This document shows positions 2,474 through 23,042 of a stretch of 23,590 nucleotides of DNA, piece after piece. The notes below the pieces were generated by a model that was given only the letters and a program-made list of their open reading frames with translations, was not told the origin of the DNA and searched no databases. The position numbers and the translations under genes were made by a program. The DNA comes from a virus. The stretch's first letter is position 1; each line of letters opens with the position of its first letter. The stretch spans positions 1 to 23,590 of IMG/VR virus record IMGVR_UViG_3300006737_000218; one strand, written 5' to 3'.

Positions 2474-3463
2474 ATGACATCAAGTTACTCAACAGATTTA
2501 AAACTAGAATTAATGGTTACAGGGGCTAACTCTGGAACCTGGGGAGATAAAACCAACACAAATTTAAATTTAGTTCAACAAGCAATTGCAGGATATCAAG
2601 AGGTATCAATAGCTGGGGGTGCTCAAACAACTAATTTATTGATGAGTGATGGAGCATTATCAAACGCTAGAAATGCAGTAATAAAATTTATAGGAACAAT
2701 TACAGGAGATCAAATTGTAACGATTCCTAATGGTATTGAAAAAGTATATACTTTAGTAAACGGAACATCAGGTGCAAATACAGTTCAATTCAAAACAGTA
2801 AGTGGAACTGGTTTTACTTTTAGTGCTACAGAAAAAAATGCTGTAATTGTTTATGCAGACGGAACAAATGTTGTAGAAATAACAAATCAGCTTGCTGGTT
2901 TAGTGGTTGGTACAGATGTTCAAGCATATGATGCTGGACTTGCTGCAATTGCAGGATTAGCAACTTCTGATGGTAATTTTATTGTTGGGAATGGTTCTAC
3001 ATTTACTGCAGAGTCAGGAGCAACCGCAAGAACTTCGTTATCTTTAGGCACATCTAACGATGTCCAGTTTGATTCTTTTGGAGTAGGAACAGCTGCTTCA
3101 GGTACTACGGGAGAAATAAGAGCTACTAATGATGTGACTGCTTTCTTTTCTTCAGATGTTGCACTCAAAGAAAATATTGTTAATATTCCTGAACCATTAG
3201 AATCTATAAAAAAATTAAATGGTGTGCTGTTTGATTGGAAAAAAGATTATATAGATAAAAGAGGCGGTGAAGATGGTTATTTTGTTAGAAAAAAAGATGT
3301 TGGAGTTATTGCACAAGAGGTAGAAAAAGTTTTACCAGAGGCAGTGGCTCAAAGGTCTGATGGTGTGAAAGCTGTAAAATATGATAGACTAACATGTTTA
3401 TTAATTGAAGCAGTAAAAACACTAAATGATAAAATAGAAAATTTAAGTAAGGAGAAAAAATAA
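2474..3463 (+). CDS. Second tail fibre with S74 chaperone domain
   Basis: 329 residues. The N-terminus (SSYSTDLKLEL, then TGANSGTWGDKTNTNL) looks like a module that attaches a fibre to the virion. Residues about 155-194 repeat the shaft module of the preceding fibre (DGNFIVGNGS, GATARTSLSLGTS). From residue 203 (GVGTAASGTTGEIRATND) through the S74 domain the two proteins are clear paralogues. The dyad is Ser227/Lys232 in SSDVALKENI; cleavage before Ser227 would release about 103 residues. VGVIAQEVEKVLP and AVKYDRL are conserved, and the C-terminus is a coiled coil. AAGGA lies about 14 nt before the ATG, an unusually long spacing, while TATAAT lies only 7 nt before it. It overlaps the next gene by one base. 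Role: trimeric fibre or short accessory fibre. Confidence 0.88.
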   Translation: MTSSYSTDLKLELMVTGANSGTWGDKTNTNLNLVQQAIAGYQEVSIAGGAQTTNLLMSDGALSNARNAVIKFIGTITGDQIVTIPNGIEKVYTLVNGTSGANTVQFKTVSGTGFTFSATEKNAVIVYADGTNVVEITNQLAGLVVGTDVQAYDAGLAAIAGLATSDGNFIVGNGSTFTAESGATARTSLSLGTSNDVQFDSFGVGTAASGTTGEIRATNDVTAFFSSDVALKENIVNIPEPLESIKKLNGVLFDWKKDYIDKRGGEDGYFVRKKDVGVIAQEVEKVLPEAVAQRSDGVKAVKYDRLTCLLIEAVKTLNDKIENLSKEKK

Positions 3464-4410
3464 TGTCTGTTCCTAGTACAAACGTTGGTCTAAGTGATAT
3501 ACAAACTGAATTTGGTGGGTCAAATCCAATTGCATTATCAGAGTATTATTCTGGAGGCCCTTTAGTTCCTTCAGGAGCTCCAGCTCCAAACGGCCCTATT
3601 CCTTCCTCTGGACAAATTGCGATTGGTCAATTTAGAGCGGCAACAGCTGCATCATTTATTTCTGCAAGTGGCGGAACAGTGACCACTTCTGGAGATTATA
3701 AAATTCATGTGTTTACAGGTAATGGAACTTTTACTGTGAGTAGTGTTGGTAATCCTGCAGGATCAGATTCTGTAACTGCTGTCGTTGTAGCGGGAGCGGG
3801 AGGCGGCGGCTCTTTCTACGGAGGAGGAGGCGGCGGAGGCGGCATGGTTCTCGATAGTGATGGCTATACTGTTTCAGCAAGTCCAGGAAGTTATCCGATT
3901 GTAATCGGAGGCGGTGGAAACGGTCCGAATGCTGACCCAACACCTGGAACTCCAGGATCTAATTCAACTGGTCTAGGCTATACAGGTTTAGGCGGTGGAC
4001 ACGGAGGCGGAGGAGGCCCTTCTTCTTCAGGAGCTGAATCTGGCGGATGCGGAGGAGGCGGAGGAGGTGCGAGACCTGGTAATACATCAGCAACTCAACC
4101 TTCACAATCAAGCCCAGGAGCATCAAATTTTGGTAATGGCGGTGGCCCAGGTAATAATGGATCAGGCGGTGGCGGAACAAATTCTGCAGGTTCAAGTGGC
4201 CCAGGAGGAGCTGGCGGAAATGCTAAAGATGTAAATCCTAATATAGGCCCTGCTCCAAATTCAGGAACTTATGGAGCTGGCGGTAGAGGTCAAAGTGGAG
4301 GTACAATTGGTGGAGCAAACACGGGCGACGGAGGAAATGGAGATAATTTTGGAGGCGGACGAGGAGCAGGAGGATCTGGTATCGTTGTTATAAAATATAA
4401 ATTTCAATAG
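3463..4410 (+). CDS. Glycine-rich tail adhesin-like protein
   Basis: 315 residues; the ATG shares one base with the upstream TAA and is preceded by AAGGAG at about 8 nt. The N-terminal 60 residues (NVGLSDIQTEFGGSNP, ALSEYYSGG) look like a virion-attachment module, followed by a proline-rich linker (residues about 32-50). Residues about 65-105 form a beta-type domain (GDYKIHVFTGNGTFTV). From about 107 the protein is dominated by GG/GGG blocks and ends GGSGIVVIKYKFQ, the usual closing strand of the phage glycine-rich domain. Family knowledge: in adhesins such as Salmonella phage S16 gp38, glycine-rich strands pack as polyglycine-II helices and carry the receptor-binding loops. Here receptor binding at the fibre tip is inferred. 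The local GC rise is explained by Gly and Pro codons, not necessarily by transfer. Confidence 0.8.
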   Translation: MSVPSTNVGLSDIQTEFGGSNPIALSEYYSGGPLVPSGAPAPNGPIPSSGQIAIGQFRAATAASFISASGGTVTTSGDYKIHVFTGNGTFTVSSVGNPAGSDSVTAVVVAGAGGGGSFYGGGGGGGGMVLDSDGYTVSASPGSYPIVIGGGGNGPNADPTPGTPGSNSTGLGYTGLGGGHGGGGGPSSSGAESGGCGGGGGGARPGNTSATQPSQSSPGASNFGNGGGPGNNGSGGGGTNSAGSSGPGGAGGNAKDVNPNIGPAPNSGTYGAGGRGQSGGTIGGANTGDGGNGDNFGGGRGAGGSGIVVIKYKFQ

Positions 4411-4418
4411 GTAAAAAT

Positions 4419-4850
4419 ATGGCACATTTTGCAAAAATAAATGAAAATAATGAAGTACTAACAGTAAATGTAGTTGATAACGAACACATTACAGATGAAG
4501 CTTCAGGACAAGCATATTTAGAAACACATAGCAATTGGCCTGCACATATGTGGATTCAAACGTCTTACAATACACAAGCTAATCAACACAGTTTAGGAGG
4601 CACTCCCTTTAGAGGAAACTTTGCAGGTATAGGTTTTACATGGGACGAGGTAAATCAAATTTTTTGGCCTCCACAACCACATCCGTCTTGGGTAAAACAT
4701 ATTGAATCAGCTACATGGAAATCACCAGCTGGTGATCCTCCTTCTTTGACTGAGGAACAATCTGCACAAAATAGTGCTGAAACTCACGCATGGATATATG
4801 TTTGGAATGAGGGTACGCAAGCTTGGGATCTTACTAATTTTCTTGCATAA
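4419..4850 (+). CDS. Conserved small phage protein next to fibre genes
   Basis: 143 residues, starting MAHFAKINENNEVL, with many Trp, His and Pro residues (FRGNFAGIGFTWDE, WPPQPHPSW, AWIYVWNEGTQAWD). The pattern resembles small proteins common beside tail-fibre genes in marine phages, but I know no assigned function. There is no signal peptide or membrane helix. The aromatic-rich, repeated Trp strands suggest a compact beta protein, possibly a fibre accessory or binding protein. A weak AGG precedes the ATG by 9 nt, and the gene starts 8 nt after the adhesin stop, so it is probably co-transcribed with it. Confidence 0.7.
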   Translation: MAHFAKINENNEVLTVNVVDNEHITDEASGQAYLETHSNWPAHMWIQTSYNTQANQHSLGGTPFRGNFAGIGFTWDEVNQIFWPPQPHPSWVKHIESATWKSPAGDPPSLTEEQSAQNSAETHAWIYVWNEGTQAWDLTNFLA

Positions 4851-4880: not shown

Positions 4881-5381
4881 ATGAATAAAAAAATACTATC
4901 TGAACAAGCATTATATTATGGCGAAGTATCAATGCCAAAAGATTTTGAGATAGATAGTAATGAATTAAGAGCAAATATTTTAGAGTGTTCAATTAATAAC
5001 ACTAAACATAAATTTTCAAAAAACTGGGATAAATTAAATAATTACATAGCAGAAAACATGTATCTAAAATATAAACTTAAATTAAGACAAAAACGTTCTT
5101 GGGGTAATGTTTATAATGCAAAAAGTAATACTCCTCCTTTATTGGAGGTTGATCTTATGAATCCAAATGATTCATGTGATTTTGTATTATTATATGGTGT
5201 GAATCTTCAAGATTGTTTGGTTAAAATATACTACGATGATAATAGAGTTAAAGGACAAAGTTGGGATATAGAACTATTAAACAATATGTTTATTATGTTT
5301 CCATCAACTAATACGTACCACATAACAAATAATTCTGAAGAAATAAATTATGTGCAAACAATAACTTATGAAAGTTTATAA
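4881..5381 (+). CDS. Degenerate 2OG-Fe(II) oxygenase-like protein
   Basis: 166 residues; first gene of a coupled cassette. The layout resembles the phage 2OG-Fe(II) oxygenase family (2OG-FeII_Oxy_5 type): RSWGNVYNA (residues 72-80) leads into the first metal-site strand, and FIMFPSTNTYHITNN (137-151) corresponds to the conserved FPS...H...N segment with His147. Where active relatives have H-x-H or H-x-D, this protein has L-E-V-D (Glu89, Asp91), and no Arg follows His147. It may bind metal poorly or be a non-catalytic partner of the oxygenases downstream. It overlaps the next gene by 14 nt. The SD is poor. The fold assignment is by motif spacing only, so moderately sure of kinship and unsure of activity. 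Confidence 0.6.
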   Translation: MNKKILSEQALYYGEVSMPKDFEIDSNELRANILECSINNTKHKFSKNWDKLNNYIAENMYLKYKLKLRQKRSWGNVYNAKSNTPPLLEVDLMNPNDSCDFVLLYGVNLQDCLVKIYYDDNRVKGQSWDIELLNNMFIMFPSTNTYHITNNSEEINYVQTITYESL

Positions 5382-5844
5382 TAACTTTTTATCTAAAAAA
5401 GAATTTACAAAACTTAAAGATTTTTTGATGGGAATTTACATGCCCTGGTATTTCAACAATGGTGTGGTAGATACAGATGATAATTATTTTCAATTTACAT
5501 TTATATTTTTTAAGGACGGTCAAATAAATTGTGATAAAAATTATTTTGATATGGTAGAACCTATTCTCAAAAAATTAAAATTTAAAAAACTCAATAAAAT
5601 CAAAGCAAATTTGTTGACTAAAGATATTAAAACCACGGAACACGGCATGCATGTAGATCAGTCAGAAGGAAAAACAGGAATATTTTATGTGAACACTTGT
5701 AATGGATACACTAAATTCGAAAATAACAAAATTGTTAAAAGTAAAGAAAATACTTATGTTGAATTTAACTCTTCAATAAAACACACAGGATCTTCTTGCA
5801 CAGATAAAAAAAGAAGAGTTGTGATTAATTTTAATTACGCATGA
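5368..5844 (+). CDS. 2OG-Fe(II) oxygenase (prolyl-hydroxylase-like)
   Basis: 158 residues, double-stranded beta-helix oxygenase. The iron ligands can be placed as His95-x-Asp97 (HGMHVDQ) and His139 (SSIKHTGS). RR at 149-150 in KKRRVVINFNY supplies the arginine expected to bind the C5 carboxylate of 2-oxoglutarate. The family couples 2OG decarboxylation to hydroxylation of a protein, nucleic acid or small molecule using O2 and Fe(II); the substrate here is unknown. It starts inside the preceding gene (14-nt overlap) without its own SD and ends with an ATGA overlap into the next gene, so translation is probably coupled along the cassette. It is short for the family, close to the minimal core. 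Confidence 0.82.
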   Translation: MKVYNNFLSKKEFTKLKDFLMGIYMPWYFNNGVVDTDDNYFQFTFIFFKDGQINCDKNYFDMVEPILKKLKFKKLNKIKANLLTKDIKTTEHGMHVDQSEGKTGIFYVNTCNGYTKFENNKIVKSKENTYVEFNSSIKHTGSSCTDKKRRVVINFNYA

Positions 5845-6467
5845 ATCTTTATAACTATTATTGGTACTTTAAATCTGCAATACCTCCTAAAGTATGCGAT
5901 GATATTATTAAATATGGATTATCTCATTCAGAAAGTATGGGTATTACAGGTGGTTATGATGAAAAAAAATTAACTAAAGATCAGATTAAAGATATTAAAA
6001 AAAAGAGAAATTCTGATTTAGTATGGCTAAACGATGCTTGGATATATAGAGAATTACATCCTTATATCTATGCTGCAAATAGTATGGCTGGTTGGAATTT
6101 TGATTGGAACAGATCAGAATCAATTCAATTTACAAAATATAAATTAAATCAATACTATGATTGGCATTGTGATAGTTGGGACCGACCCTATCAAAAAGAA
6201 AAAGGACATCCTGATAATGGAAAAATAAGAAAACTTTCTATGACGTGTCAATTGACAGATGGATCTGAATATGAAGGTGGAGAACTAGAATTTGATTTTA
6301 GAAATAATGATCCTGATAAAAAAAATAATTTTCACAAATGCACAGAAATATTATCCAAAGGTTCAATTGTTGTTTTTCCTTCATTTGTGTGGCATAGAGT
6401 TAAACCTGTAACTAAAGGTATAAGGTATTCTTTAGTAATGTGGAATTTAGGATATCCTTTCAAATGA
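5841..6467 (+). CDS. 2OG-Fe(II) oxygenase, PKHD-type hydroxylase
   Basis: 208 residues with the most canonical site of the cassette: FTKYKLNQYYDWHCDSW gives His109-x-Asp111; the core continues LSMTCQLTD and EYEGGELEF; FPSFVWHRVKPV supplies His185; and GIRYSLVMWNLG supplies Arg195 for 2OG. This matches the PKHD hydroxylases (PiuC-like and many phage proteins, 2OG-FeII_Oxy_3 type). The product is a soluble hydroxylase of unknown substrate; proline, lysine or aspartate side chains of virion proteins are possible. The ATG overlaps the previous stop as ATGA. The last codons overlap the next start, again ATGA. Confidence 0.9.
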   Translation: MNLYNYYWYFKSAIPPKVCDDIIKYGLSHSESMGITGGYDEKKLTKDQIKDIKKKRNSDLVWLNDAWIYRELHPYIYAANSMAGWNFDWNRSESIQFTKYKLNQYYDWHCDSWDRPYQKEKGHPDNGKIRKLSMTCQLTDGSEYEGGELEFDFRNNDPDKKNNFHKCTEILSKGSIVVFPSFVWHRVKPVTKGIRYSLVMWNLGYPFK

Positions 6468-7096
6468 TAAAAGTGTTTAAAAAGAAAAAGTATACAGTAA
6501 TACGTAAAGCAATATCAAAAGAGTTAGCTGCATTTATTGCTAATTATTTTAGTATGCAAAAACAAGTTTATGATACTTGTATGAATAGAAGATACTTCTC
6601 ACCCTATGAAAATATTATAGGTCACTATGAAAATAAAAACCAACAGATACCTGACACATACTGCCAGTATAGCAATATAGCTATGGAAACTTTGTTGCTA
6701 AAATGTCAACCAAAAATGGAAGAAGTAACAGGATTAAAATTATATCCTGCGTATACTTATGCTAGAATATATAAAAAAGGTGATGAGCTTAAAAGACACA
6801 AAGATAGATTTAGTTGTGAAATTTCAACTACGATGAATTTAGGAGGAGACAATTGGCCTATTTTTTTAGAACCATCTGGTAAACAAGGTTTAAAAGGTGA
6901 AAAGATAGATTTAGAACAAGGAGATATGTTGGTTTATTCTGGATGTGAACTAGAACATTGGAGAGAAAAATTTAAAGGTAAAGAATGTATACAAGTATTT
7001 TTACATTATAATAATTCTAAAACACCAGGAGCAAAAGAAAATATGTTTGATAAGCGTCCTCATTTAGGATTACCTTCATGGTTCAAAAGAACATGA
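6464..7096 (+). CDS. 2OG-Fe(II) oxygenase
   Basis: 210 residues from the ATG at 6464, chosen because it forms ATGA with the preceding stop like its neighbours; a GTG at 6440 would add eight residues but has no better SD. Iron ligands: RHKDRFSCEIS gives His112-x-Asp114, and CELEHWREKF gives His165; the 2OG-binding basic residue is probably Lys171 or Lys173 before QVFLHY. The strand GDMLVYSG and the segment PIFLEPSGK are typical of the family. The C-terminal 30 residues (RPHLGLPSWF) are an added tail. It differs enough from the two upstream oxygenases that the cassette is not a simple recent triplication. Substrate unknown. Confidence 0.85.
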   Translation: MIKVFKKKKYTVIRKAISKELAAFIANYFSMQKQVYDTCMNRRYFSPYENIIGHYENKNQQIPDTYCQYSNIAMETLLLKCQPKMEEVTGLKLYPAYTYARIYKKGDELKRHKDRFSCEISTTMNLGGDNWPIFLEPSGKQGLKGEKIDLEQGDMLVYSGCELEHWREKFKGKECIQVFLHYNNSKTPGAKENMFDKRPHLGLPSWFKRT

Positions 7097-7434
7097 CAAT
7101 TTTAAAAAGATTTGCAAAACAATGTTTAGAGGATATCACTTATCCTAAAACTCAAAAAACATGGCATGTGCAAGGGAGACTTAAAAATAAATCTAATCAA
7201 ATATTTAAATTTGATGTTAGAGGCATGTCCAAAGCTGAAGGTAAAAAATTAGAGAAAACTGGGGATACTAAATCAAATGCAGACAAGATGGTATTCGAAA
7301 CAGATACTCATTGGATAATATTAGATACAAATGAAATACATGAATATATAGAAAAATATAATATTAGAGATATATTATTAGACGATTTATTAGCTAAATC
7401 AGAATGGAATATAATAATATCTAAAACGGGTTGA
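7093..7434 (+). CDS. Unknown protein, last gene of oxygenase cassette
   Basis: 113 residues from the ATG at 7093, which makes an ATGA overlap with the previous stop; an in-frame ATG at 7078 is possible. I do not recognise the family. The N-terminal half is basic (KRFAKQC, KTWHVQGRLKNK), and the C-terminal half has WIILDTNEIHEYI and a leucine-rich helix (ILLDDLLAKSEW). There is no membrane segment and no metal-binding motif of the 2OG type. Coupling to three oxygenases makes it a candidate accessory or substrate-presenting protein, but that rests on position only. Confidence 0.65.
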   Translation: MTILKRFAKQCLEDITYPKTQKTWHVQGRLKNKSNQIFKFDVRGMSKAEGKKLEKTGDTKSNADKMVFETDTHWIILDTNEIHEYIEKYNIRDILLDDLLAKSEWNIIISKTG

Positions 7435-7471
7435 TCTTTATTGAATTAGAATATTGATGTATAATATTGTT

Positions 7472-9400
7472 ATGGCTTTAATAAAAATACCTTTTAGACC
7501 TGGATTTAATAAACAGCAAACAGATACTCAAAATGAAAATAATTGGGTAGACGGGGATAATGTACGTTTTAGGTACGGTCAACCTGAAAAAATTGGTGGT
7601 TGGCTTCAAGATACTTCATCTGAATTGATAGGTGCAGCTAGAAAACAACACATATACGCTGATTTAGATGGCCGAAAATACAATGCAATAGGAACGAATA
7701 GATGTTTGTATATTTATCACTCAGGAACTTTCTATGATATCACACCCATTGACCCAGATAGGCAATCTACTGGAGCAAATATAACAACGACTAATGCATC
7801 AGCAACAGTTACTATTACAACATCAGGAGCTCACGATTTATCTGCGGGTGATATATTGACTTTTGAAAACGCTGGATCATTCACAACCGCAAACACAGTT
7901 TACACTGCTGCAGATTTTGACGATAAATTATTTGAAGTTCAAACTGCACCAACCACAACTACATTTACGATATTAATGCCTACAACTGAAACTAAATCAG
8001 GAGTATCAAACAACGGAACTTTAGATCCTTTACCTTACATTAAAATAGGAGATTTGGTTTCGACTGGAGGTTATGGTTGGGGAGCTGGAACGTGGGGATC
8101 TTCAACTTGGGGAACAGCTAGAACTACTACAAATGTAGTCTTAGATCCTGGAATGTGGTCACTAGATAATTATGGTCAAATATTAATTGCAACTGTACAT
8201 AATGGAAGATCATTCAATTGGAACCCAATAGCAGTAGATGGTAATGCTCTTACTACTAGAGCGACTCCTATTACTAACAATCCTACAAAATCAGTTATGA
8301 CTATTGTATCAGACAGAGATAGGCATTTATTTCATCTTGGCACTGAAACAACTATTGGCACTCCTGGTACTCAAGATAAAATGTTTATTAGATTCTCTGA
8401 TCAAGAAGATAGAACAGTGTACGCTCCAACATCTACTAACACAGCAGGAACATTTCAGCTTGATTCTGGGACTGAAATAAGGGGAGCTGTTCAAGCAAAA
8501 GATTACACGTTTGTTGGTACAGATACCTCAGCATATATAATGCAATTCGTTGGTCCACCTTTTACATTTTCTATACGACAAGTAGGATCAAACTGTGGAA
8601 TCATAGGGCAAAACTCTTTAGTGTTTGTTGATGCTACTGTTTATTGGATGTCTGATGAAGGAGGATTTTTTGTGTATGACGGATCAGTCAAACGTCTTCC
8701 TTGTTTGGTAGAAGACTTTGTTTTTAAAACAACAGGTAGTAATCCTGGTTTAAATTATGCTGCAGGACAACAGGTATTTGGTGCACACAATAGTTTATTT
8801 AATGAAATAATATGGTTTTACCCAGATGATTCAAGTCAATTTAATAATAGAATAGTAACGTATAATTATTTAGAAAACACTTGGACAACAGGAACTCTAG
8901 CAAGAAGCTCTTATGTAGATAAAGTAGTTTTCGATAAACCTTATGCAACAAAATTTGTTCAAAACAGTGCACCTAATTTTCCAACTGTAAGTGGAATTAC
9001 CATAGGTCAAGGTAAATCTATCTATTTTGAACATGAGACAGGAGTAAATGAAGTTGATGCAAGCGGAAATAAAACAGCTATTGAAGCTTTTATACAATCT
9101 GGTGACTTTGACTTAGATGCAGATGGAGAAGGTGAATTTTTTATAAAGATAAGAAGATTTATTCCTGACTTTAAAGTTCTTCAAGGTAATGCTGAAGTGA
9201 CGATGCAACTAAGAGATTTTCCTTCGGAAAGTCAAACTAGCTCACCGTTAGGGCCTTTTTCTGTAAGTAGCTCTACAACTAAAATAGATACTCGAGCAAG
9301 AGCAAGATTAGCAGCTTTGAAAATATCAAACGATTCTATAGATGAAAATTGGAGATTAGGTTTATTTAGATTTGATTTTCAACCTGATGGAAGAAGATAG
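7472..9400 (+). CDS. Large tail protein, beta-propeller-like (possible nozzle or stabilisation protein)
   Basis: 642 residues from the ATG at 7472 (MALIKIPFRPGFNKQQTD), which fits the start I know for this marine-phage family; TTG 7454 and ATG 7457 in frame would add six or five residues. The N-terminus NNWVDGDNVRFRYGQPEKIGGW is the hallmark. Blade-like repeats follow: YNAIGTNRCLYIY, a Gly-Trp segment near residue 200 (WGAGTWGSSTWG), LIATVHNGRSFNWNP, and VYWMSDEGGFFVYDG near 394. The C-terminal part is a beta domain with a late RARARLAALKI. Length and order next to the internal virion genes suggest a role like T7 gp12 or P22 gp10, which close the portal channel, but this is analogy. The ATG has no SD; TATAAT ends 6 nt before it. 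The stop overlaps the next GTG by one base. Confidence 0.75.
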   Translation: MALIKIPFRPGFNKQQTDTQNENNWVDGDNVRFRYGQPEKIGGWLQDTSSELIGAARKQHIYADLDGRKYNAIGTNRCLYIYHSGTFYDITPIDPDRQSTGANITTTNASATVTITTSGAHDLSAGDILTFENAGSFTTANTVYTAADFDDKLFEVQTAPTTTTFTILMPTTETKSGVSNNGTLDPLPYIKIGDLVSTGGYGWGAGTWGSSTWGTARTTTNVVLDPGMWSLDNYGQILIATVHNGRSFNWNPIAVDGNALTTRATPITNNPTKSVMTIVSDRDRHLFHLGTETTIGTPGTQDKMFIRFSDQEDRTVYAPTSTNTAGTFQLDSGTEIRGAVQAKDYTFVGTDTSAYIMQFVGPPFTFSIRQVGSNCGIIGQNSLVFVDATVYWMSDEGGFFVYDGSVKRLPCLVEDFVFKTTGSNPGLNYAAGQQVFGAHNSLFNEIIWFYPDDSSQFNNRIVTYNYLENTWTTGTLARSSYVDKVVFDKPYATKFVQNSAPNFPTVSGITIGQGKSIYFEHETGVNEVDASGNKTAIEAFIQSGDFDLDADGEGEFFIKIRRFIPDFKVLQGNAEVTMQLRDFPSESQTSSPLGPFSVSSSTTKIDTRARARLAALKISNDSIDENWRLGLFRFDFQPDGRR

Positions 9401-9921
9401 TGATTTATAACATATTTGGTATGCCTATATTTGTTTCAAATATAGAATCAAAAAAAATTAAATTTGAAAAACAAGAATTTAAAAAAACACAATCTTGGGT
9501 ATCAAATACCGTATCTTCTTTTTATTCTCAAAACAAACTTACAGAAAACTCTGAAAAATATTTATTTAAACAATTGATTAAAAATTTAGATGAACTTTAC
9601 AAGAAAGAATATGAAATTGCTCTTCAATCAATTTGGACAAATAAATATTTAGATAAAGATTATCAAGAGCCACACATACATCCTGGTTGTGTTTTTAGTT
9701 TTGTAATTTATAAAAAGGTTGGAGAAAGTAAAACATATTTTATTTCACCATATGAAGATTTAATAATATCTTATCAGGTAGCAAATTTGTTTGATGCTAC
9801 AAAAAAAATACAATGTAAAGATGATCAAATGATTATTTTTCCTAGTTTTATGAAACATGGAGTATCTTCATGTTCAAATAATGAAACAATCGCAGGCAAC
9901 TTGCTTTTCAGATTCAAATAG
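9400..9921 (+). CDS. 2OG-Fe(II) oxygenase-like protein with HxH site
   Basis: 173 residues with GTG start: TAGTG joins it to the tail-protein stop, and GGAAGAAG about 3-10 nt upstream supports it. The protein resembles the 2OG-FeII_Oxy_5 group: IFGMPIFVSNI at the N-terminus, SIWTNKYLDKDYQEPHIHPG giving His92-x-His94, then FSFVIYKK and IIFPSFMKHGVSSCSNN giving His153. The arginine normally found shortly after the distal His is absent: the strand reads ETIAGNLLFRF, with the only Arg at 171. Co-substrate binding may therefore differ or be lost. It sits apart from the main oxygenase cassette but is directly coupled to the tail gene. Confidence 0.75.
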   Translation: MIYNIFGMPIFVSNIESKKIKFEKQEFKKTQSWVSNTVSSFYSQNKLTENSEKYLFKQLIKNLDELYKKEYEIALQSIWTNKYLDKDYQEPHIHPGCVFSFVIYKKVGESKTYFISPYEDLIISYQVANLFDATKKIQCKDDQMIIFPSFMKHGVSSCSNNETIAGNLLFRFK

Positions 9922-10570: not shown

Positions 10571-10785
10571 CAAAAACAGTAATGATTAATGGAGAAGAAG
10601 TTCCAGTTCTTCCAGCAAAAGCTGAAGAAGAAATTAAAAATAAAAGAACAGGGAAAGTATATGCTAGCAAAGCTGATTTTGATAATGATGTTGCTGATAC
10701 CAATACTGACACTGTTGAGGATGATCTTCAAATCAATCAAAAAATAACAGTTGCATCTTTAGAGGTATTTGGTAAAACCAAATAA
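10567..10785 (+). CDS. Small acidic conserved phage protein
   Basis: 72 residues, starting MTKTVMINGEEVPVLPA, with a middle motif RTGKVYASKADFDNDVAD and the C-terminus SLEVFGKTK. Acidic overall, in contrast to the strongly basic protein encoded just upstream; the two are coupled by ATGA and could interact. It overlaps the glycosyltransferase start by one base (TAATG). No known function, no membrane segment. Confidence 0.7.
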   Translation: MTKTVMINGEEVPVLPAKAEEEIKNKRTGKVYASKADFDNDVADTNTDTVEDDLQINQKITVASLEVFGKTK

Positions 10786-11714
10786 TGAATCCCCAAGGTG
10801 GAACTGAACTACAACATAGTTTTTTAGATCAATACGCTAATAAAAACTTATTAGATCAAGTACAGATAACTACTTCTGTACCTGAAAAAATACCTCTACA
10901 TCCAACTAAACCAAATATTCTTTGGCAAAAAAATTCTTACGACCAGCCCAATATAGCACCTTGGTTTAGTCAAAAAACTAATCATAGTAAATATGATTGG
11001 TATGTCTTTAATAGTAATTGGACATATGAAAAATTTAGAATGATGTTTGATATACCAACTGAAAAATGTCATGTAATTAAAAATGGTTGCACAAGTTTTC
11101 CTAAAAGAAAAGTTTTTAAAAAAGGTGATCCAATAAGAATAATCCATCAGAATACACCATGGAGAGGTTTGAGTGTATTACTTGGTGCAATGCAACTAGT
11201 AAAAAATCCACTAATAAAATTAGATGTATACAGTTCAACTGAAGTATACGGTGAAGATTTTAAAAATCAAAATGATCACCGATATGTGCCTCTTTATAAA
11301 CAAGCTTCAGAATTACCAAACGTCAATTATATTGGTTACAGACCTAATAGTTTTATTTTAGAAAATTTAAACAAATACAATATGTACGTGTACCCAAGTA
11401 TTTTTGAGGAAACATCCTGTATATCTGCTATTGAATCTTTATCTGCTGGACTGTATTCAATTGTGACTAACTATGGTGCTTTGTATGAAACCTGCGCAGA
11501 ATTTCCTATGTATGTTACTTATACAAAAGACTTAAAAATACTATCTCAAACATTTGCTGCTGCTATTGAAATGGCTGCTAAAACACTTCATGAAACAGCT
11601 ATTCAAGATAGCTTAGACATGCAACAAGCTTTTTATAAAAAATATTACAATTGGGATAAAAAAGCTATGGAGTGGAATAATTTTTTATACAACGTAATAA
11701 ATGCAAAAAAGTAA
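10785..11714 (+). CDS. GT-B glycosyltransferase, GT4-like
   Basis: 309 residues. The start cannot move upstream because a stop lies in frame at 10773. The protein begins directly at the glycine loop (NPQGGTEL) that in GT4 enzymes follows the first beta strand, so the N-terminal Rossmann half is shortened. The C-terminal half is typical: WRGLSVLLGAM (126-136), YIGYRP (182-187), then YVYPSIFEETSCISAIESLSAG, in which Glu209 and Glu217 form the E-x7-E sugar-nucleotide motif, followed by IVTNYGALYET. Such enzymes transfer a sugar from an NDP-sugar with retention. Acceptor unknown. It overlaps the next reading frame and is the first of three consecutive glycosyltransferases. Confidence 0.82.
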   Translation: MNPQGGTELQHSFLDQYANKNLLDQVQITTSVPEKIPLHPTKPNILWQKNSYDQPNIAPWFSQKTNHSKYDWYVFNSNWTYEKFRMMFDIPTEKCHVIKNGCTSFPKRKVFKKGDPIRIIHQNTPWRGLSVLLGAMQLVKNPLIKLDVYSSTEVYGEDFKNQNDHRYVPLYKQASELPNVNYIGYRPNSFILENLNKYNMYVYPSIFEETSCISAIESLSAGLYSIVTNYGALYETCAEFPMYVTYTKDLKILSQTFAAAIEMAAKTLHETAIQDSLDMQQAFYKKYYNWDKKAMEWNNFLYNVINAKK

Positions 11715-11747
11715 AAATTGGTCTAATAACGATACCTATCAAACAAT

Positions 11748-11754
11748 AAAGGAG
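11748..11754 (+). promoter_or_regulatory. Strong SD deciding GTG start at 11761
   Basis: AAAGGAG ends 6 nt before GTG 11761. No comparable site precedes the in-frame ATG at 11701, which lies inside the upstream gene. Confidence 0.6.
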
Positions 11755-11760
11755 ATAAAC

Positions 11761-12600
11761 GTGTCCCCACAAGATCCTTCAGAACCTATTTGGTTTGAAA
11801 AAGAAAAAACAACCTCTAAAATATTAATGGAGGGATTTAAAGAAGAACAACAAATAAAAATATGTGTAGGCACTCCTGTGCATTCAGAAGTATCCATTCA
11901 TTATACTCAATGTCTTTTGGAAATACAAAAAGATTTTTTAAAGAATGGTGATAGCGTGTCTTTTCTAATGCATAAATCATCACTTATTACACAAGGTAGA
12001 AATCTTACGGTTGCATCATTTTTAGAAACTAAAGCAGATTATTTATTATTTTTAGATTCTGATATTGCAATTAGCCCGCATGTGGTTAGAAAAATGATTG
12101 ATGCAGATAAAGATGTAATATGCGTACCTTACCCATTGAAAAGCATACAGTTTGGAAAGTTAAAAGAAAAATTTGAAAGAGGATTAATAAAAACAGAAGC
12201 AGATATGGAAACTGGTGCGTGCACTTATCCAGTAAGGTTAGAAGATGCTAGTAAAATTGTAGTAAATAAAGGCATAACAGAAATAACCCATGCTCCTGCG
12301 GGTTGTTTGTTAATTAAACGTTCAGTGTTTGAAAAATTAATAAAAACATATCCTGATAGAAAAATAAAACAAAGTTCTATTATAAATGGCAAGAGTGAAG
12401 AAAAAGATAATTACTACAATTTTTTTGATACTGTTCATGATAAGGAAACGCAAACTTACTTAGGAGAAGATTTTGGTTTTTGTAAGTTATGGAAAGAAGT
12501 TGGAGGCAAGATTTTTGCTATAGTAGATGAATATATTATGCATGTGGGAGAACATCAATACATTGGTCGGTACATGGATGAATTTATAAAACATGACTAA
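11761..12600 (+). CDS. GT-A glycosyltransferase (first of tandem pair)
   Basis: 279 residues from GTG 11761, selected because of the AAAGGAG at ideal distance; an upstream in-frame ATG at 11701 would add 20 residues and overlap the GT4 gene by 14 nt. GT-A features, numbered from the GTG: HKSSLITQGRN (71-81), a DxD metal motif in LFLDSDIAI (Asp99, Asp101), VPYPLK, APAGCLLIKRSVF (178-190), GEDFGFC (235-241; acidic, probable catalytic-base region) and a metal-site His near 261 in IMHVGEHQY. It is soluble, with no membrane helix. Its closest visible relative is the next gene. Donor and acceptor unknown. Confidence 0.82.
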   Translation: MSPQDPSEPIWFEKEKTTSKILMEGFKEEQQIKICVGTPVHSEVSIHYTQCLLEIQKDFLKNGDSVSFLMHKSSLITQGRNLTVASFLETKADYLLFLDSDIAISPHVVRKMIDADKDVICVPYPLKSIQFGKLKEKFERGLIKTEADMETGACTYPVRLEDASKIVVNKGITEITHAPAGCLLIKRSVFEKLIKTYPDRKIKQSSIINGKSEEKDNYYNFFDTVHDKETQTYLGEDFGFCKLWKEVGGKIFAIVDEYIMHVGEHQYIGRYMDEFIKHD

Positions 12601-13330
12601 ATTATATTTAGCTTCTCCAACAACAGGTCTAGTAGATATCCACTATATGAGATCTGTTTTTTCACTACAGTCAGAATGTCATAAAAGAAAAGTTGGTATT
12701 ACATTACATTTACACAAAAGTTCTATTGTTACTTTTGGTAGAAATGGTTGCACTGCTGGGTTTTTAAGTTCGGACTGTACTCACATGTTATTTGTAGATA
12801 CTGATATTCAATTTAATGAACAAGATATATTTAAAATGGTTGAGGCTGATGAGGAAGTTACTTTAATACCATATCCTATGAAATGGATTGATTGGAAAAA
12901 ATCAAAAGAATTATTCGAAAAACATAAAATACCTGTGAATAAAGGTGGTTTTCACTTTCCAATGAAAGTAATGGATGAAGATAACTTCGAGAGTATTAAT
13001 GGTTGGATGGAAATAAAACGAGGCCCTGCAGGTTGTATGTTGATAAAAAGAGAAGCATTTGAAAGAATGATTAATTACTATCCTGAACTTAAAGTAAGAC
13101 AAAATCATTTAATAAATGAAACAGAAAAAAACATGAAACACTCTTACAACTTTTGGGATACTGAGTTTGTTAAAGAAACAGGACAAATAATAGGTGAAGA
13201 TTTTGCGTTCTGTGACCGTTTTAGAAAGGCTGGAGGACGTATATTTGCGCTTATAAACTCCGAAATAACACACCACGGTAACTATCCTTTTAAAGCCAAG
13301 TTCATTGACGAATGCGCTAAAATTGAGTAA
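12593..13330 (+). CDS. GT-A glycosyltransferase (second of tandem pair)
   Basis: 245 residues, overlapping its paralogue by 8 nt. It shares nearly every block with the upstream gene in the same order: HKSSIVTFGRN (41-51), LFVDTDIQF with Asp69/Asp71, IPYPMK, GPAGCMLIKREAF (144-156), YNFWDT, GEDFAFC (201-207) and EITHHG with His227/His228. It lacks about eight residues between the YP and PAGC blocks and has no N-terminal extension. Both copies keep the DxD and GED motifs, so both look active and probably differ in donor or acceptor. It ends 38 nt before the next gene, one of the few real gaps. Confidence 0.82.
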   Translation: MTKLYLASPTTGLVDIHYMRSVFSLQSECHKRKVGITLHLHKSSIVTFGRNGCTAGFLSSDCTHMLFVDTDIQFNEQDIFKMVEADEEVTLIPYPMKWIDWKKSKELFEKHKIPVNKGGFHFPMKVMDEDNFESINGWMEIKRGPAGCMLIKREAFERMINYYPELKVRQNHLINETEKNMKHSYNFWDTEFVKETGQIIGEDFAFCDRFRKAGGRIFALINSEITHHGNYPFKAKFIDECAKIE

Positions 13331-20962: not shown

Positions 20963-21718
20963 GTGCTCATAAAAAAATACGATTACGAACATTACGATAG
21001 AGAAACTAAAAAGACAGGACGTTCTTATTTAGTCGGTGAGAAAAAATTACCTTCAGTTACAACAATCTTAGATAAGACCAAAGACAAAGAATGGTTAAAA
21101 AAATGGCAAGAGAAAATTGGTATTGAAGAAGCAGAGCGAATAAAAAATGAAGCATCTTTGATTGGTACTGAGATGCATAAATATTTAGAATATTATGTTG
21201 AGGGTAAGAGATACGAATCATTATCTCCTCAAGGCCAACAAGCTAGATTAATGGCATTAGAGATAGTTAAGCATGGTTTCAAACCTATTACAGAAGTATG
21301 GGGCTCAGAGATATCTCTAAGACATACTGATAAGTATGCAGGTGCAACTGATCTTGTTGCAGTTTATAATGGTAAACCTGTTATTATTGACTTCAAACAA
21401 AGTAACAAACCTGCACAAGAACATTATTCTAAAGTACAAGATTACTATACACAGTTAGCAGCATATGGAGAAGCTCACTCAGAACACTACGGACCAATCG
21501 AAGGTGGTGTAGTTCTAATGTGTACAAGAGGATTATTGTTCCAAAAGTTTGAGGTATTTGGAGATAGGTATGAACAGGCTAAAAAAGATTGGTGGAAGAA
21601 GTATGATGACTATCTTGCTATAACCAAGTCCGAACAACTTCACCAAGAGTCTGAGCAGAAAGACGAAACTTTGTCTTCAGAGACCGAACAATCTTCTCAT
21701 CAACAGTCCCCTCAGTAA
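20963..21718 (+). CDS. PD-(D/E)XK exonuclease, RecB/MGME1-like
   Basis: 251 residues, GTG start 12 nt after the membrane-protein stop. Motifs in order: KLPSVTTIL (28-36), GTEMHKYLE with His72 (68-76), GATDLVAV with Asp130, VIIDFKQS with Asp143-x-Lys145, and QLAAYGEA with Gln164 and Tyr168. This is the complete RecB-family nuclease signature, closest in style to MGME1-like and phage Cas4/RecB-type exonucleases, which use two metal ions on DNA ends. No four-Cys iron-sulfur cluster is visible, so it is not a typical Cas4. The role is probably replication, recombination or host DNA breakdown with the neighbouring helicase. The last ~31 residues are Gln/Glu/Ser-rich and lie over the helicase gene on the other strand. 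Confidence 0.87.
   Translation: MLIKKYDYEHYDRETKKTGRSYLVGEKKLPSVTTILDKTKDKEWLKKWQEKIGIEEAERIKNEASLIGTEMHKYLEYYVEGKRYESLSPQGQQARLMALEIVKHGFKPITEVWGSEISLRHTDKYAGATDLVAVYNGKPVIIDFKQSNKPAQEHYSKVQDYYTQLAAYGEAHSEHYGPIEGGVVLMCTRGLLFQKFEVFGDRYEQAKKDWWKKYDDYLAITKSEQLHQESEQKDETLSSETEQSSHQQSPQ
21618..21718. other. 101-nt convergent overlap of two genes
   Basis: The final 33 codons of the exonuclease and of the helicase share this DNA on opposite strands. The helicase side encodes its conserved-looking end (TVDEKIVRSLKTKF, then LGEVVRTWL). The exonuclease side encodes a low-complexity tail. There is no space for a terminator between the two. Confidence 0.9.
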
Positions 21719-23042
21719 TCAAATCTACATAAGTAACTTTTTGAGTTTGACCTATACGGTGTGCTCGTTCTTCTGATTGTAATCTGTGTTCAGCATCAAA
21801 GCTGTTTGAATAATATACAACTAATGTTGCAGCTGTTAGAGTTAAACCATAACCACCTGTAGATGGATTAGCTACAAAAAATCTACATTTAGGATCGTTT
21901 TGAAATAGTTTAATAGCTTTAGATCTATCTTCACTACTGACCGCACCATAAAAATTTACCACGGACTCAGGCCCATATTTTTGTCTAAGTTCTGATGTAA
22001 TGTCTTCTATGTTATGAACCCAGTTAGCCCAGATAATTGTTTTAGCATCTGACTCTTCAAGTATTTCAAATAAAGTTTTCATCTTATTGTTCTCAAGTTT
22101 TTTGATTACAGAAGATTCACCCTTAAAAAAACCAGCGGTAATTTGATGTAGTCTTATAATCTCAGTCATGGCATTATTAACTGTCATGTAATCACCTTGT
22201 AGATTAGTATGTGCTTGTTGTTTAAGTTCATTGTATAAAGTTCTTTGTTCATCTGTTAAATGCACTACACGTTTTTGATATAGTTTTGGTGGTAAATCTA
22301 GACATTCTTCCTTACGAACCCTAAATGAAAATTCTTTTATTTTATTTTCAAGCTCTTCAAGATTTTTAAAACCAACTGGTATAGCTATTTGTTTATCACC
22401 ATAAGAATGCATCATTTCAAATATACAATATCTATTTTTAAAAGCAGTAAATGTAGCAAAATTTAACAAATCAGGATCTAAAAATTCACATTGACTATAA
22501 ATATCAATTGGTGATTTAGTAATTGGTGTACCCGTAAGTATACGTCTATATTTAGCTAGTGGTCTAATCTTTATAAGGTTTTTAGTCCTCATAGCTTTTA
22601 TGTTTTTAATTGTAGATGATTCGTCAATACCAACTAATGCGTCGTGTTTATGCAAAAAATCACAAGCAATATTGTATCCTTTTTTTGTTGAAAATGCTTC
22701 TACATTCATAACTAGTATTTTACATTTTTGAGAAGGTGTTTGAATAAATTTTTTTACGGTCTTTTCAGCTGTAGGTTTCCATAAACAAACTTCATGAGGT
22801 ATATTAATATGTTTAGGTATTTCATCATTGACCCAGATAGTATACACAGATTTAGTAGCTATAATCAAAGCACTATCTATATCTTGTGTTGTAAATAAAA
22901 CACCAATATTATCAATAAGAACTTTTGTTTTACCTGTACCCATCTCCATAAATAAGGCGAAAGACTCTTTATTCCAACAAGCTTCTAATGCTTTACGTTG
23001 ATGATCAAAAGGTTCTGTTTTAAATTTATACTTAGCTACCAC
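21618..23042 (-). CDS. SNF2-family SF2 DNA helicase/translocase
   Basis: 474 residues, GTG start at 23042. SF2 motifs: Q-like FDHQRKAL (12-19), Walker A MGTGKT (34-39), Walker B DESS (140-143), LTGTP (169-173), TGGYGLTLTAA (395-405) and QSEERAHRIGQ (422-432). The RxHRxGQ signature marks the SNF2 group. At this length it is a bare two-lobe motor without added DNA-binding or nuclease domains, like other phage SNF2 proteins used in replication or recombination. It is the only minus-strand gene: divergent from the gene at 23108 and convergent with the exonuclease, with which it may act. No SD precedes the GTG (upstream reads AAAAAACTTTTC), so translation may be weak or leaderless. Alternative starts within the first codons are unlikely since YKFKTEPFDHQ belongs to the domain. 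Confidence 0.9.
   Translation of the reverse strand: MVAKYKFKTEPFDHQRKALEACWNKESFALFMEMGTGKTKVLIDNIGVLFTTQDIDSALIIATKSVYTIWVNDEIPKHINIPHEVCLWKPTAEKTVKKFIQTPSQKCKILVMNVEAFSTKKGYNIACDFLHKHDALVGIDESSTIKNIKAMRTKNLIKIRPLAKYRRILTGTPITKSPIDIYSQCEFLDPDLLNFATFTAFKNRYCIFEMMHSYGDKQIAIPVGFKNLEELENKIKEFSFRVRKEECLDLPPKLYQKRVVHLTDEQRTLYNELKQQAHTNLQGDYMTVNNAMTEIIRLHQITAGFFKGESSVIKKLENNKMKTLFEILEESDAKTIIWANWVHNIEDITSELRQKYGPESVVNFYGAVSSEDRSKAIKLFQNDPKCRFFVANPSTGGYGLTLTAATLVVYYSNSFDAEHRLQSEERAHRIGQTQKVTYVDLITEGTVDEKIVRSLKTKFRLSAQTLGEVVRTWL

Follow-up and report, generated by a model that had tools for sequence, protein, structure and literature searches.

Five overlapping genes in an HTVC023P-type podophage represent one state of a variable island of 2OG-Fe(II) oxygenases. 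The divergence of the oxygenases tracks that of two upstream genes, the adhesin-like w4 and its neighbour w5, while backbone genes track the tail gene gp10, so w4, w5, and the oxygenases are inherited as one module. Predicted folds of g1 and g4, conserved iron sites, synteny, and co-inheritance carry an explanation that has an even chance of being right: together with w4 and w5, the modular island would form a co-inherited adhesin-maturation module, with the enzymes hydroxylating the adhesin complex. HTVC023P-type phages infect SAR11, which are among the most abundant bacteria in the ocean, and viral contigs with oxygenases of this kind are widespread.

The locus

The window is the whole stretch analysed, 23,590 nt of IMGVR_UViG_3300006737_000218 from an HTVC023P-type (SAR11) podophage. 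The genes discussed are:

w4, 3463..4410, + strand: Gly-rich adhesin-like protein (putative role), first gene of the co-inherited module
w5, 4419..4850, + strand: small protein, phrog_7759, N-terminus MAHFAK; adhesin partner by position
g1, 4881..5381, + strand: conserved pseudo-oxygenase; predicted double-stranded beta-helix (DSBH) fold without the iron triad
g2, 5368..5844, + strand: 2OG-Fe(II) oxygenase; H95/D97/H139/R150
g3, 5841..6467, + strand: 2OG-Fe(II) oxygenase, PKHD-like; H109/D111/H185/R195
g4, 6464..7096, + strand: protein of predicted 2OG-oxygenase fold, phrog_2954; H112/D114/H165
g5, 7093..7434, + strand: small orphan protein
gp10-like, 7454..9400, + strand: P22-type stabilization/tail protein; backbone gene that marks the edge of the module
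X6, 9400..9921, + strand: further 2OG oxygenase, outside the five-gene block

The original prediction described the genes at 4881-7434 as a coupled block, and ORF analysis confirms the layout, with a 14-nt overlap between g1 and g2 followed by three 4-nt ATGA overlaps. The ORF lister also gives longer starts for g4 (GTG at 6440) and g5 (ATG at 7078); the ATGA starts are preferred because relatives fit them. These five genes are part of a longer module, linked to the adhesin, that starts at about 3463. Downstream, what had been called simply a large tail protein is a relative of the P22-type stabilization protein (phrog_3287, E 3.8e-84), and some of its homologs carry the annotation 'stabilization protein'. 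X6 matches PF13759 (E 9.7e-8) and TIGR02466 (4.1e-8, yet under that model's cut-off), and is rare, with 5 ORFs in the locus set. Beyond gp10, outside the module, positions 10785-13330 contain three glycosyltransferase-like genes.

The product of w4 matches PF21722 Gly_rich_2 (E 1.4e-8) and phrog_2295, and its family consists of about 27% Gly and 6% Pro. X-Pro-Gly contexts are frequent in w4. Its neighbour w5 matches phrog_7759 at E 3e-29. In the w5-scan loci, 72 w5 genes were checked and 70 have w4 as their immediate upstream neighbour, and where a w5 gene has at least 800 bp downstream, g1 or an oxygenase comes next in 64/65. Conversely, w5 precedes g1 in 168/186.

Oxygenases and the pseudo-oxygenase

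The iron-site residues predicted for g2, g3, and g4, along with R195 of g3, are correct on checking the sequence. By profile, g2 and g3 are relatives of 2OG oxygenases, as had been proposed. The g3 product matches PF13640 at E 3.5e-15, and its family profile finds the PKHD hydroxylase 3dkq (2.3e-8), PiuC (2e-7), and viral collagen P4H (0.0026) in the PDB. Its iron triad is intact in 229/232 relatives in the locus set, and R195 occupies the usual 2OG-binding position in 226/232. For g2, the triad is intact in 126/131 relatives in the locus set, and R150, at the usual position of the 2OG-binding basic residue some 9-12 residues beyond the distal His, is kept in 129/131. Membership of g2 in phrog_274 (E 6.2e-44) brings the label 'DNA endonuclease V', which was rejected: none of 31 family members match the pyrimidine-dimer excision profile (T4 endonuclease V / DenV; presumably Pfam PF03013) at E<=0.01, and 14/31 match PF13640 (best 1.7e-6). 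The g2 of the window itself has no match to PF13640 at E<=0.01 (0.044).

The fourth gene belongs to phrog_2954 (E 2.5e-52), which PHROGs labels 'ferrochelatase'. Ferrochelatase has an alpha/beta chelatase fold. The AlphaFold model of g4 (pLDDT 95.6) is instead a prolyl-hydroxylase-type DSBH, with P. putida P4H:EF-Tu as best Foldseek match (4iw3, E 1.9e-9). Compared with 2OG oxygenases in VIA, the model gives Z 15-17 over 163-184 residues to SnoN, P4H, and PHD2, and the antibiotic enzyme SnoN ranks level with or above P4H/PHD2 among the fold matches. At E<=0.1, none of 30 g4-family members match the Pfam ferrochelatase profile, and one of the 30 matches PF13532 2OG-FeII_Oxy_2 (1.8e-4). The label was therefore set aside; with phrog_2954 predicted to have a 2OG-oxygenase fold the heme link would fall away, and heme or iron-metabolism readings that rest on phrog_2954 need revision. 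The predicted fold thus favours g4 as a 2OG-oxygenase relative, in line with the original prediction. The iron triad is intact in 185/186 relatives in the locus set. The canonical 2OG-binding Arg/Lys after the distal His is absent, with Q177 there in 184/186; R101 and R167, invariant in the family, are possible substitutes for the 2OG-binding basic residue.

The degenerate relative foreseen in the block is g1, a pseudo-oxygenase predicted from its model (pLDDT 91.0) to have the DSBH fold without the iron site. Among the best Foldseek matches listed, 3bvc (E 8.6e-7) is followed by PHD2/P4H; VIA gives Z 14.8 to 2rg4 and 14.2 to viral collagen P4H, and PHD2/P4H structures make up the majority of the VIA matches listed. 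The triad of active members was sought in g1 and not found: HxD/E in 70-130 together with a His in 139-151 occurs in just 2/198 relatives. The distal-His position is Tyr in 191/198.

The DSBH is thus predicted for both modelled proteins, g1 and g4, and the protein-modifying enzymes P4H and PHD2 figure prominently in their matches. Searched by sequence against solved structures, g1, g4, and g5 gave no credible match. Six pairs among g1-g5 were compared profile to profile with hhalign on shallow alignments, and none reached significance, so the sequences do not show that these families descend from one ancestor. The last gene, called unknown by the original prediction, is an orphan: g5 has no match in the phages collection, is found at 48 viral-contig loci, and is the last gene in 32/34 of the islands that possess it.

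Island content and order

Searches of viral contigs returned at least 600 matches each for g1, g2, g4, and w5. The 95 complete islands contain 2-10 oxygenases in 60 gene orders, positioned after w4 and w5. The exact order g1-g2-g3-g4-g5-gp10 occurs in 5/95, and two of these 5 are the window and contig L091, which are 99.99% identical to each other. A fixed five-gene system was rejected on these counts. Order is nevertheless partly kept while content varies, as g1 comes first in 70/78 islands and g4 last in 78/90. The place of the five-gene block relative to the backbone genes w2-w3 differs between loci, and one contig (L255) has the oxygenases in reverse orientation while keeping them between gp10/g5 and w5. 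What stands of the proposed dedicated system is a compact set of mostly overlapping genes co-inherited with w4/w5 and not with the backbone; the fixed unit does not. As islands hold 2-10 oxygenases, separate modifications made by a modular enzyme set are more likely than successive steps of one pathway.

Co-inheritance with w5 and w4

Oxygenase divergence correlates with that of w5 at r 0.65-0.77, with that of w4 at 0.38-0.42, and with that of gp10 at about 0. For g3, r is 0.77 with w5 (n=57) and -0.03 with gp10; the corresponding values are 0.65 (n=53) and 0.03 for g4, and 0.47 (n=57) and -0.08 for island content. The median distance of g4 is 370 bp to gp10 and 2262 bp to w5, yet g4 tracks w5. 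Bootstrapping the excess of the g4-w5 over the g4-gp10 correlation in the window-order group (48 loci) gave an interval of 0.39-0.67. Without dereplication the correlations looked much alike. The backbone genes w2 and w3, likewise compared without dereplication, correlate with gp10 (r 0.65 each; n=36 for w2, n=48 for w3) and with neither w5 nor g4.

When w5 is controlled in a partial Mantel test, the contribution of w4 is not significant (partial r 0.07, p 0.16), so either w4 or w5 may be the partner of the oxygenases. The correlation of g1 with w4 is weak (0.13, p 0.08). In the small HTVC023P-order group (n=8) the co-inheritance pattern does not stand out clearly, and w5 tracks gp10 (0.72).

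Residue composition of w4 was compared with oxygenase number in 93 islands. Residue counts do not rise (rho -0.08 for P, -0.16 for N), and none of the residues P, N, K, D, W, Y, T, S, G, and H, taken by count or by fraction, has a convincing link; the values for K fraction (rho 0.24, p 0.02) and S count (rho -0.24, p 0.02) carry no correction for the roughly 20 tests made. Contrasts by gene presence or absence, namely g5 with Pro (p 0.003) and both g1 and g5 with Lys, were set aside owing to clade confounds.

Relatives in named phages

The presence of w5 in named phages was taken from 12 records of a search with the S-SM1 w5, leaving out zth2-2 (unannotated) and two other Melnitz records. In the cyanobacterial myophages S-SM1 and S-RSM4, a w4-like gene is followed by a w5-like gene and then by oxygenase genes. 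Oxygenases lie beside w5 in these two and in 023Pt_psg01 and HTVC023P, and in DSL-LC04 they lie on its upstream side. HTVC025P and Melnitz-2 have w5 with no oxygenase annotated within the stretch examined, so the modification would not be obligatory. The upstream neighbour of w5 in HTVC008M encodes a protein with no match to w4. Relatives of g2 and g3 in cyanophages also adjoin replication genes, near UvsY/UvsW.

Proposed role and alternatives

In the adhesin-maturation explanation, the overlapping island genes would be translated together late in infection. With its dead site and predicted prolyl-hydroxylase fold, g1 may act as an adaptor or holdase on w5/w4, the putative substrates, while g2, g3, g4, and the variable extra enzymes of relatives would consume Fe(II)-activated O2 and 2-oxoglutarate to place hydroxyl groups on side chains within the adhesin complex. 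Differing enzyme sets would then alter receptor-contact chemistry or stability, and any effect on host binding would follow from this. As the island is inherited with a presumed host-binding protein, chemical modification by phages of their own host-contacting part is a possibility. A more tentative extension is combinatorial diversification of receptor-binding proteins, in which swappable hydroxylases around a g1 adaptor write a module-specific side-chain pattern with the adhesin gene unchanged, related modules being shared by SAR11 podophages and picocyanobacterial myophages. If true, this would be a new route for phages to vary what hosts encounter.

Unlikely, though it accounts equally well for adhesin co-inheritance, is that the enzymes modify not the virion but a receptor, glycan, or lipid on the host surface, which might prevent superinfection or release progeny; enzymes and adhesin would be co-inherited because one receptor has to suit them both. 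The glycosyltransferase-like genes and the small-molecule enzymes among the structural neighbours of g4, such as SnoN, speak for it, and the available parts of PMC7029224 (mSystems 2020) propose surface alteration by pelagimyophage glycosyltransferases. However, the glycosyltransferases of the window lie beyond gp10, the g1 model matches mostly PHD2/P4H among the matches listed, and a dead-site g1 would fit a protein substrate more easily. That the oxygenases are passive cargo, merely riding along in a recombination hot spot after the adhesin, is distinctly improbable and already refuted in part. Adhesin-adjacent regions are variable in many phages and island content is highly so (60 orders in 95), but w5 is followed by the same kind of gene in 64/65 rather than by assorted cargo, order is constrained at both ends, and iron sites are conserved.

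A role as auxiliary metabolic genes, consuming 2-oxoglutarate or serving host nitrogen, iron, or heme metabolism, is the published view and is given still less credence here. As far as the available text of each goes, PMC3037559 (Environ Microbiol 2010) proposed that they bear on nitrogen stress and the amount of 2OG, Wittmers 2022 (PMC9599517) paired oxygenases with ferrochelatase/heme, and Bolanos 2024 (PMC11561400) counted phrog2954 as ferrochelatase. Against this, the 'ferrochelatase' has a predicted 2OG-oxygenase fold, and a metabolic role gives no reason to expect co-inheritance with an adhesin rather than the backbone. Hydroxylation of phage DNA or RNA bases is the most improbable reading. 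Some superfamily members act on nucleic acids and the cyanophage relatives lie near UvsY/UvsW; the accessible portions of PMC3037559 and PMC7029224 mention DNA repair and nucleic-acid modification, respectively. The island nonetheless sits in a virion module away from replication genes, and, as a weak point, a nucleic-acid oxygenase is described in none of the best 50 fold matches for g1 or g4. Co-inheritance with the adhesin makes the many 2OG oxygenases of marine phages a testable question.

Comparison with known systems

The genes of Wittmers 2022 (PMC9599517) and Bolanos 2024 (PMC11561400) are of the same kind and phage group, with oxygenases co-located with phrog_2954. In the parts of these papers available, the label 'ferrochelatase' is accepted at face value and host metabolism is the role assigned to the genes; the adhesin link, the pseudo-oxygenase, and a co-inheritance test are absent. 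The pelagimyophage host recognition cluster (PMC7029224) likewise combines a hypervariable tail-fibre region with additional enzymes, and its phages share the host. It belongs to myophages and is centred on glycosyltransferases, and its available sections make no mention of an oxygenase module tied to one adhesin. Within the excerpts available, no paper on marine-phage oxygenases was found to tie them to adhesin modification, PMC3620275, PMC5628999, and PMC9602691 included.

PKHD-type hydroxylases (PiuC, Sbal_3634; 3dkq, 9ghl) are the nearest solved sequence relatives of g3, but phage context and coupling differ and their role is not transferable. Mimivirus L230 is a collagen lysyl hydroxylase/glucosyltransferase, which would be a precedent for a virus hydroxylating and glycosylating fibre-type proteins; in the present locus the two kinds of enzyme have their own genes, with gp10 between the oxygenases and the glycosyltransferases. 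The P4H group (P. putida P4H 4iw3, PHD2, PBCV-1 viral collagen P4H 5c5t) shares the predicted DSBH with g1 and g4, at about 9-17% identity in structural alignments. Its iron triad is common to g4 and absent from g1, and g4 differs in having Gln near the usual 2OG-binding Arg/Lys. Protein side-chain hydroxylation, as performed by the P4H group, offers the best functional analogy.

Gene layout of the virion module

By ORF, Pfam, and PHROG matches, the 23,590-base virus record belongs to an HTVC023P-type podophage and carries its virion module. HTVC023P, whose host is SAR11, is the nearest isolate at the DNA level, and an IMG/VR contig (L091) is 99.99% identical to the window across 15.4 kb. The original prediction described five overlapping genes (g1–g5) between an adhesin and a large tail protein; re-analysis recovers the same ORFs, overlaps, and iron-site residues.

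Features of the module around the block
85-1602, fibre protein with S74 chaperone (Pfam/PHROG)
2474-3463, fibre protein with S74 chaperone (Pfam/PHROG)
3463-4410, w4, Gly-rich adhesin-like protein
4419-4850, w5, small protein (phrog_7759)
4881-5381, g1
5368-5844, g2
5841-6467, g3
6464-7096, g4
7093-7434, g5
7454-9400, P22-type stabilization protein (gp10-like)

The two fibre proteins are 66% identical over a C-terminal stretch that includes the S74 domain, a within-module duplication. Immediately 3' of the gp10-like gene lies a sixth 2OG oxygenase (9400-9921, PF13759/TIGR02466-like), which is scarce in the locus set (5 ORFs). Three consecutive glycosyltransferase-like genes (10785-13330; PF00534, Anp1/GT2-like, and a paralogue of the second, 36% identical) are also 3' of gp10, hence outside the co-inherited module. 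A minus-strand SNF2-type helicase gene (21618-23042) overlaps tail-to-tail with the end of a PD-(D/E)XK nuclease gene (20963-21718).

The block proteins

By sequence, g3 is a clear 2OG oxygenase, matching PF13640 and lying closest in the PDB to PKHD hydroxylases. The g2 family (phrog_274) is labelled 'DNA endonuclease V', yet at E<=0.01 none of 31 relatives hits any family of DNA-repair endonucleases, whereas 14 match PF13640. Labelled 'ferrochelatase' (phrog_2954), g4 has no Pfam match; its predicted structure (pLDDT 95.6) instead has a 2OG-oxygenase fold. Its closest counterparts in the PDB are 2OG oxygenases: P. putida prolyl-4-hydroxylase ranks first with Foldseek (E 1.9e-9), and SnoN, P4H, and PHD2 give Z of 15–17. 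H112/D114/H165 is kept in 185/186 g4 sequences. Gln177 lies near the usual 2OG-carboxylate position, where Arg or Lys is expected, and the invariant Arg101 and Arg167 are possible stand-ins. Both PHROGs labels seem mistaken for the families in this block, and GenBank records of cyanophages and pelagiphages are annotated with the same names.

The g1 model (pLDDT 91.0) shares the fold of g4. As the distal His position is Tyr in 191/198 sequences and loose triad elements occur in only 2/198, g1 is a conserved pseudo-oxygenase. The oxygenase assignment in the original prediction is supported by predicted double-stranded beta-helix models for g1, which lacks the iron triad, and for g4. The g5 family is well conserved (37 members aligned) and mostly the final gene ahead of gp10, with no credible database relative. 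Profile-profile comparison of six pairs among g1–g5, on shallow alignments, linked none of the block families to another.

A variable oxygenase island

Viral contigs were scanned with g4, g1, g5, g2, and w5 (best 80 of at least 600 matches kept for all but g5), giving 328 loci, or 268 after redundancy removal, enriched for window relatives. The 95 complete islands (the window, L091, and isolate records among them) carry 2–10 oxygenases beyond g1/g5 in 60 gene orders; rare S-SM1-island families without assigned function were scored as oxygenases and unassigned ORFs skipped. The five-gene block is one state of this variable island. The proposed dedicated cassette survives as a partial order, in which g1 leads (70/78), g4 is the final oxygenase (78/90), and g5 stands at the end (32/34), but not as a fixed unit. 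Adjacent genes overlap in 290/394 gaps, a figure inflated by first-start calling. The gene before g1 is w5 in 168/186 cases. In the w5-scan loci (best 80 of at least 600 matches; 7/80 loci removed as redundant), g1 or an oxygenase comes next after 64/65 of the w5 genes that have 800 bp or more of downstream sequence.

The w4-w5-island block has the backbone gene w3 5' and gp10 3' in 51/95, is followed by the backbone gene w2 in 26/95 (the contig ending upstream in 25 of these), and sits between w2 and w3 in 3/95. HTVC023P itself reads island-w2-w3-gp10. L347, a contig of a single-cell Pelagibacteraceae genome, has a related order: w4, w4, w5, g1, a non-g2 oxygenase, g3, a g3b/g3c-type gene, g4, w2, w3, gp10. 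Oxygenases run opposite to their neighbours in L229, L231, L250, L254, and L255, with both neighbours visible in L255, and HTVC027P has a similar inverted group ahead of gp10.

Co-inheritance and putative function

Rank Mantel tests on pairwise divergence (57 dereplicated loci; g4 in 53, g1 in 43) show that g3 and g4 track w5 (r 0.77 and 0.65) and w4 (0.42 and 0.38), and show no correlation with gp10 (-0.03 and 0.03). The content of the island behaves likewise (w5 0.47, w4 0.28, gp10 -0.08; 57 loci), while g1 tracks w5 (0.50) and w4 weakly (0.13, p 0.08). The two halves of gp10 agree (0.55). That gp10 serves as an informative marker follows from w2 (36 loci) and w3 (48 loci, neither set dereplicated), which track it (0.65 each) but neither w5 nor g4. 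DNA distance does not account for the pattern, since g4 lies far nearer gp10 than w5 (medians 370 and 2262 bp). Window-type order alone (48 loci, not dereplicated) gives 0.62 for g4 with w5 and 0.07 with gp10 (bootstrap difference 0.39–0.67); the HTVC023P-type order, with 8 loci only, shows no clear contrast, and w5 there tracks gp10 (0.72).

Taking the genes, predicted folds, sites, and co-inheritance as the observed part, the island most likely works by hydroxylating an adhesin/w5 complex. Late co-translation would produce the active enzymes, together with g1, next to the adhesin and w5, whose side chains would be hydroxylated with g1 as adaptor. The chief rival, action on a host receptor or surface, would likewise lead enzymes and adhesin to be inherited together. 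The case for a metabolic role is weaker given the corrected ferrochelatase label of g4 and the inheritance with w4/w5 rather than gp10.

Comparison with other phages

Wittmers 2022 (PMC9599517) describes eight kinds of 2OG oxygenase in the HTVC023P-type group, frequently next to 'ferrochelatase', with a heme-related reading, and Bolanos 2024 (PMC11561400) treats phrog2954 as ferrochelatase. A 2OG/nitrogen role is proposed in PMC3037559 (Environ Microbiol 2010), where one hypothetical protein is listed as having a ferrochelatase domain; PMC9602691 reports a cyanophage with 24 2OG oxygenase genes. As far as the literature searched shows, the g4 fold, the conserved pseudo-oxygenase g1, and co-inheritance with adhesin and w5 are new.

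Some relatives of the oxygenases lie near UvsY/UvsW or DNA polymerase without a fibre link, and some w5 relatives have no oxygenase annotated nearby. Oxygenase strings stand near fibre or structural genes in Mosig, podophage HTVC033P, S-SSM5, and P-RSM4. Other genes in or near such strings in myophages (loci L005, L345, L343, L344, and L006) encode a tryptophan halogenase (HTVC008M and syn9), a carbamoyltransferase (S-SSM5 and P-RSM4), and heme oxygenase with phycocyanobilin:ferredoxin oxidoreductase (Mosig). In the SAR11 myophage HTVC008M, a w5-like gene adjoins an opposite-strand string of five oxygenases, and the protein 5' of the w5-like gene has no match to w4. The cyanomyophages S-SM1 and S-RSM4 carry, in this order, genes for w4-like and w5-like proteins and an oxygenase string.
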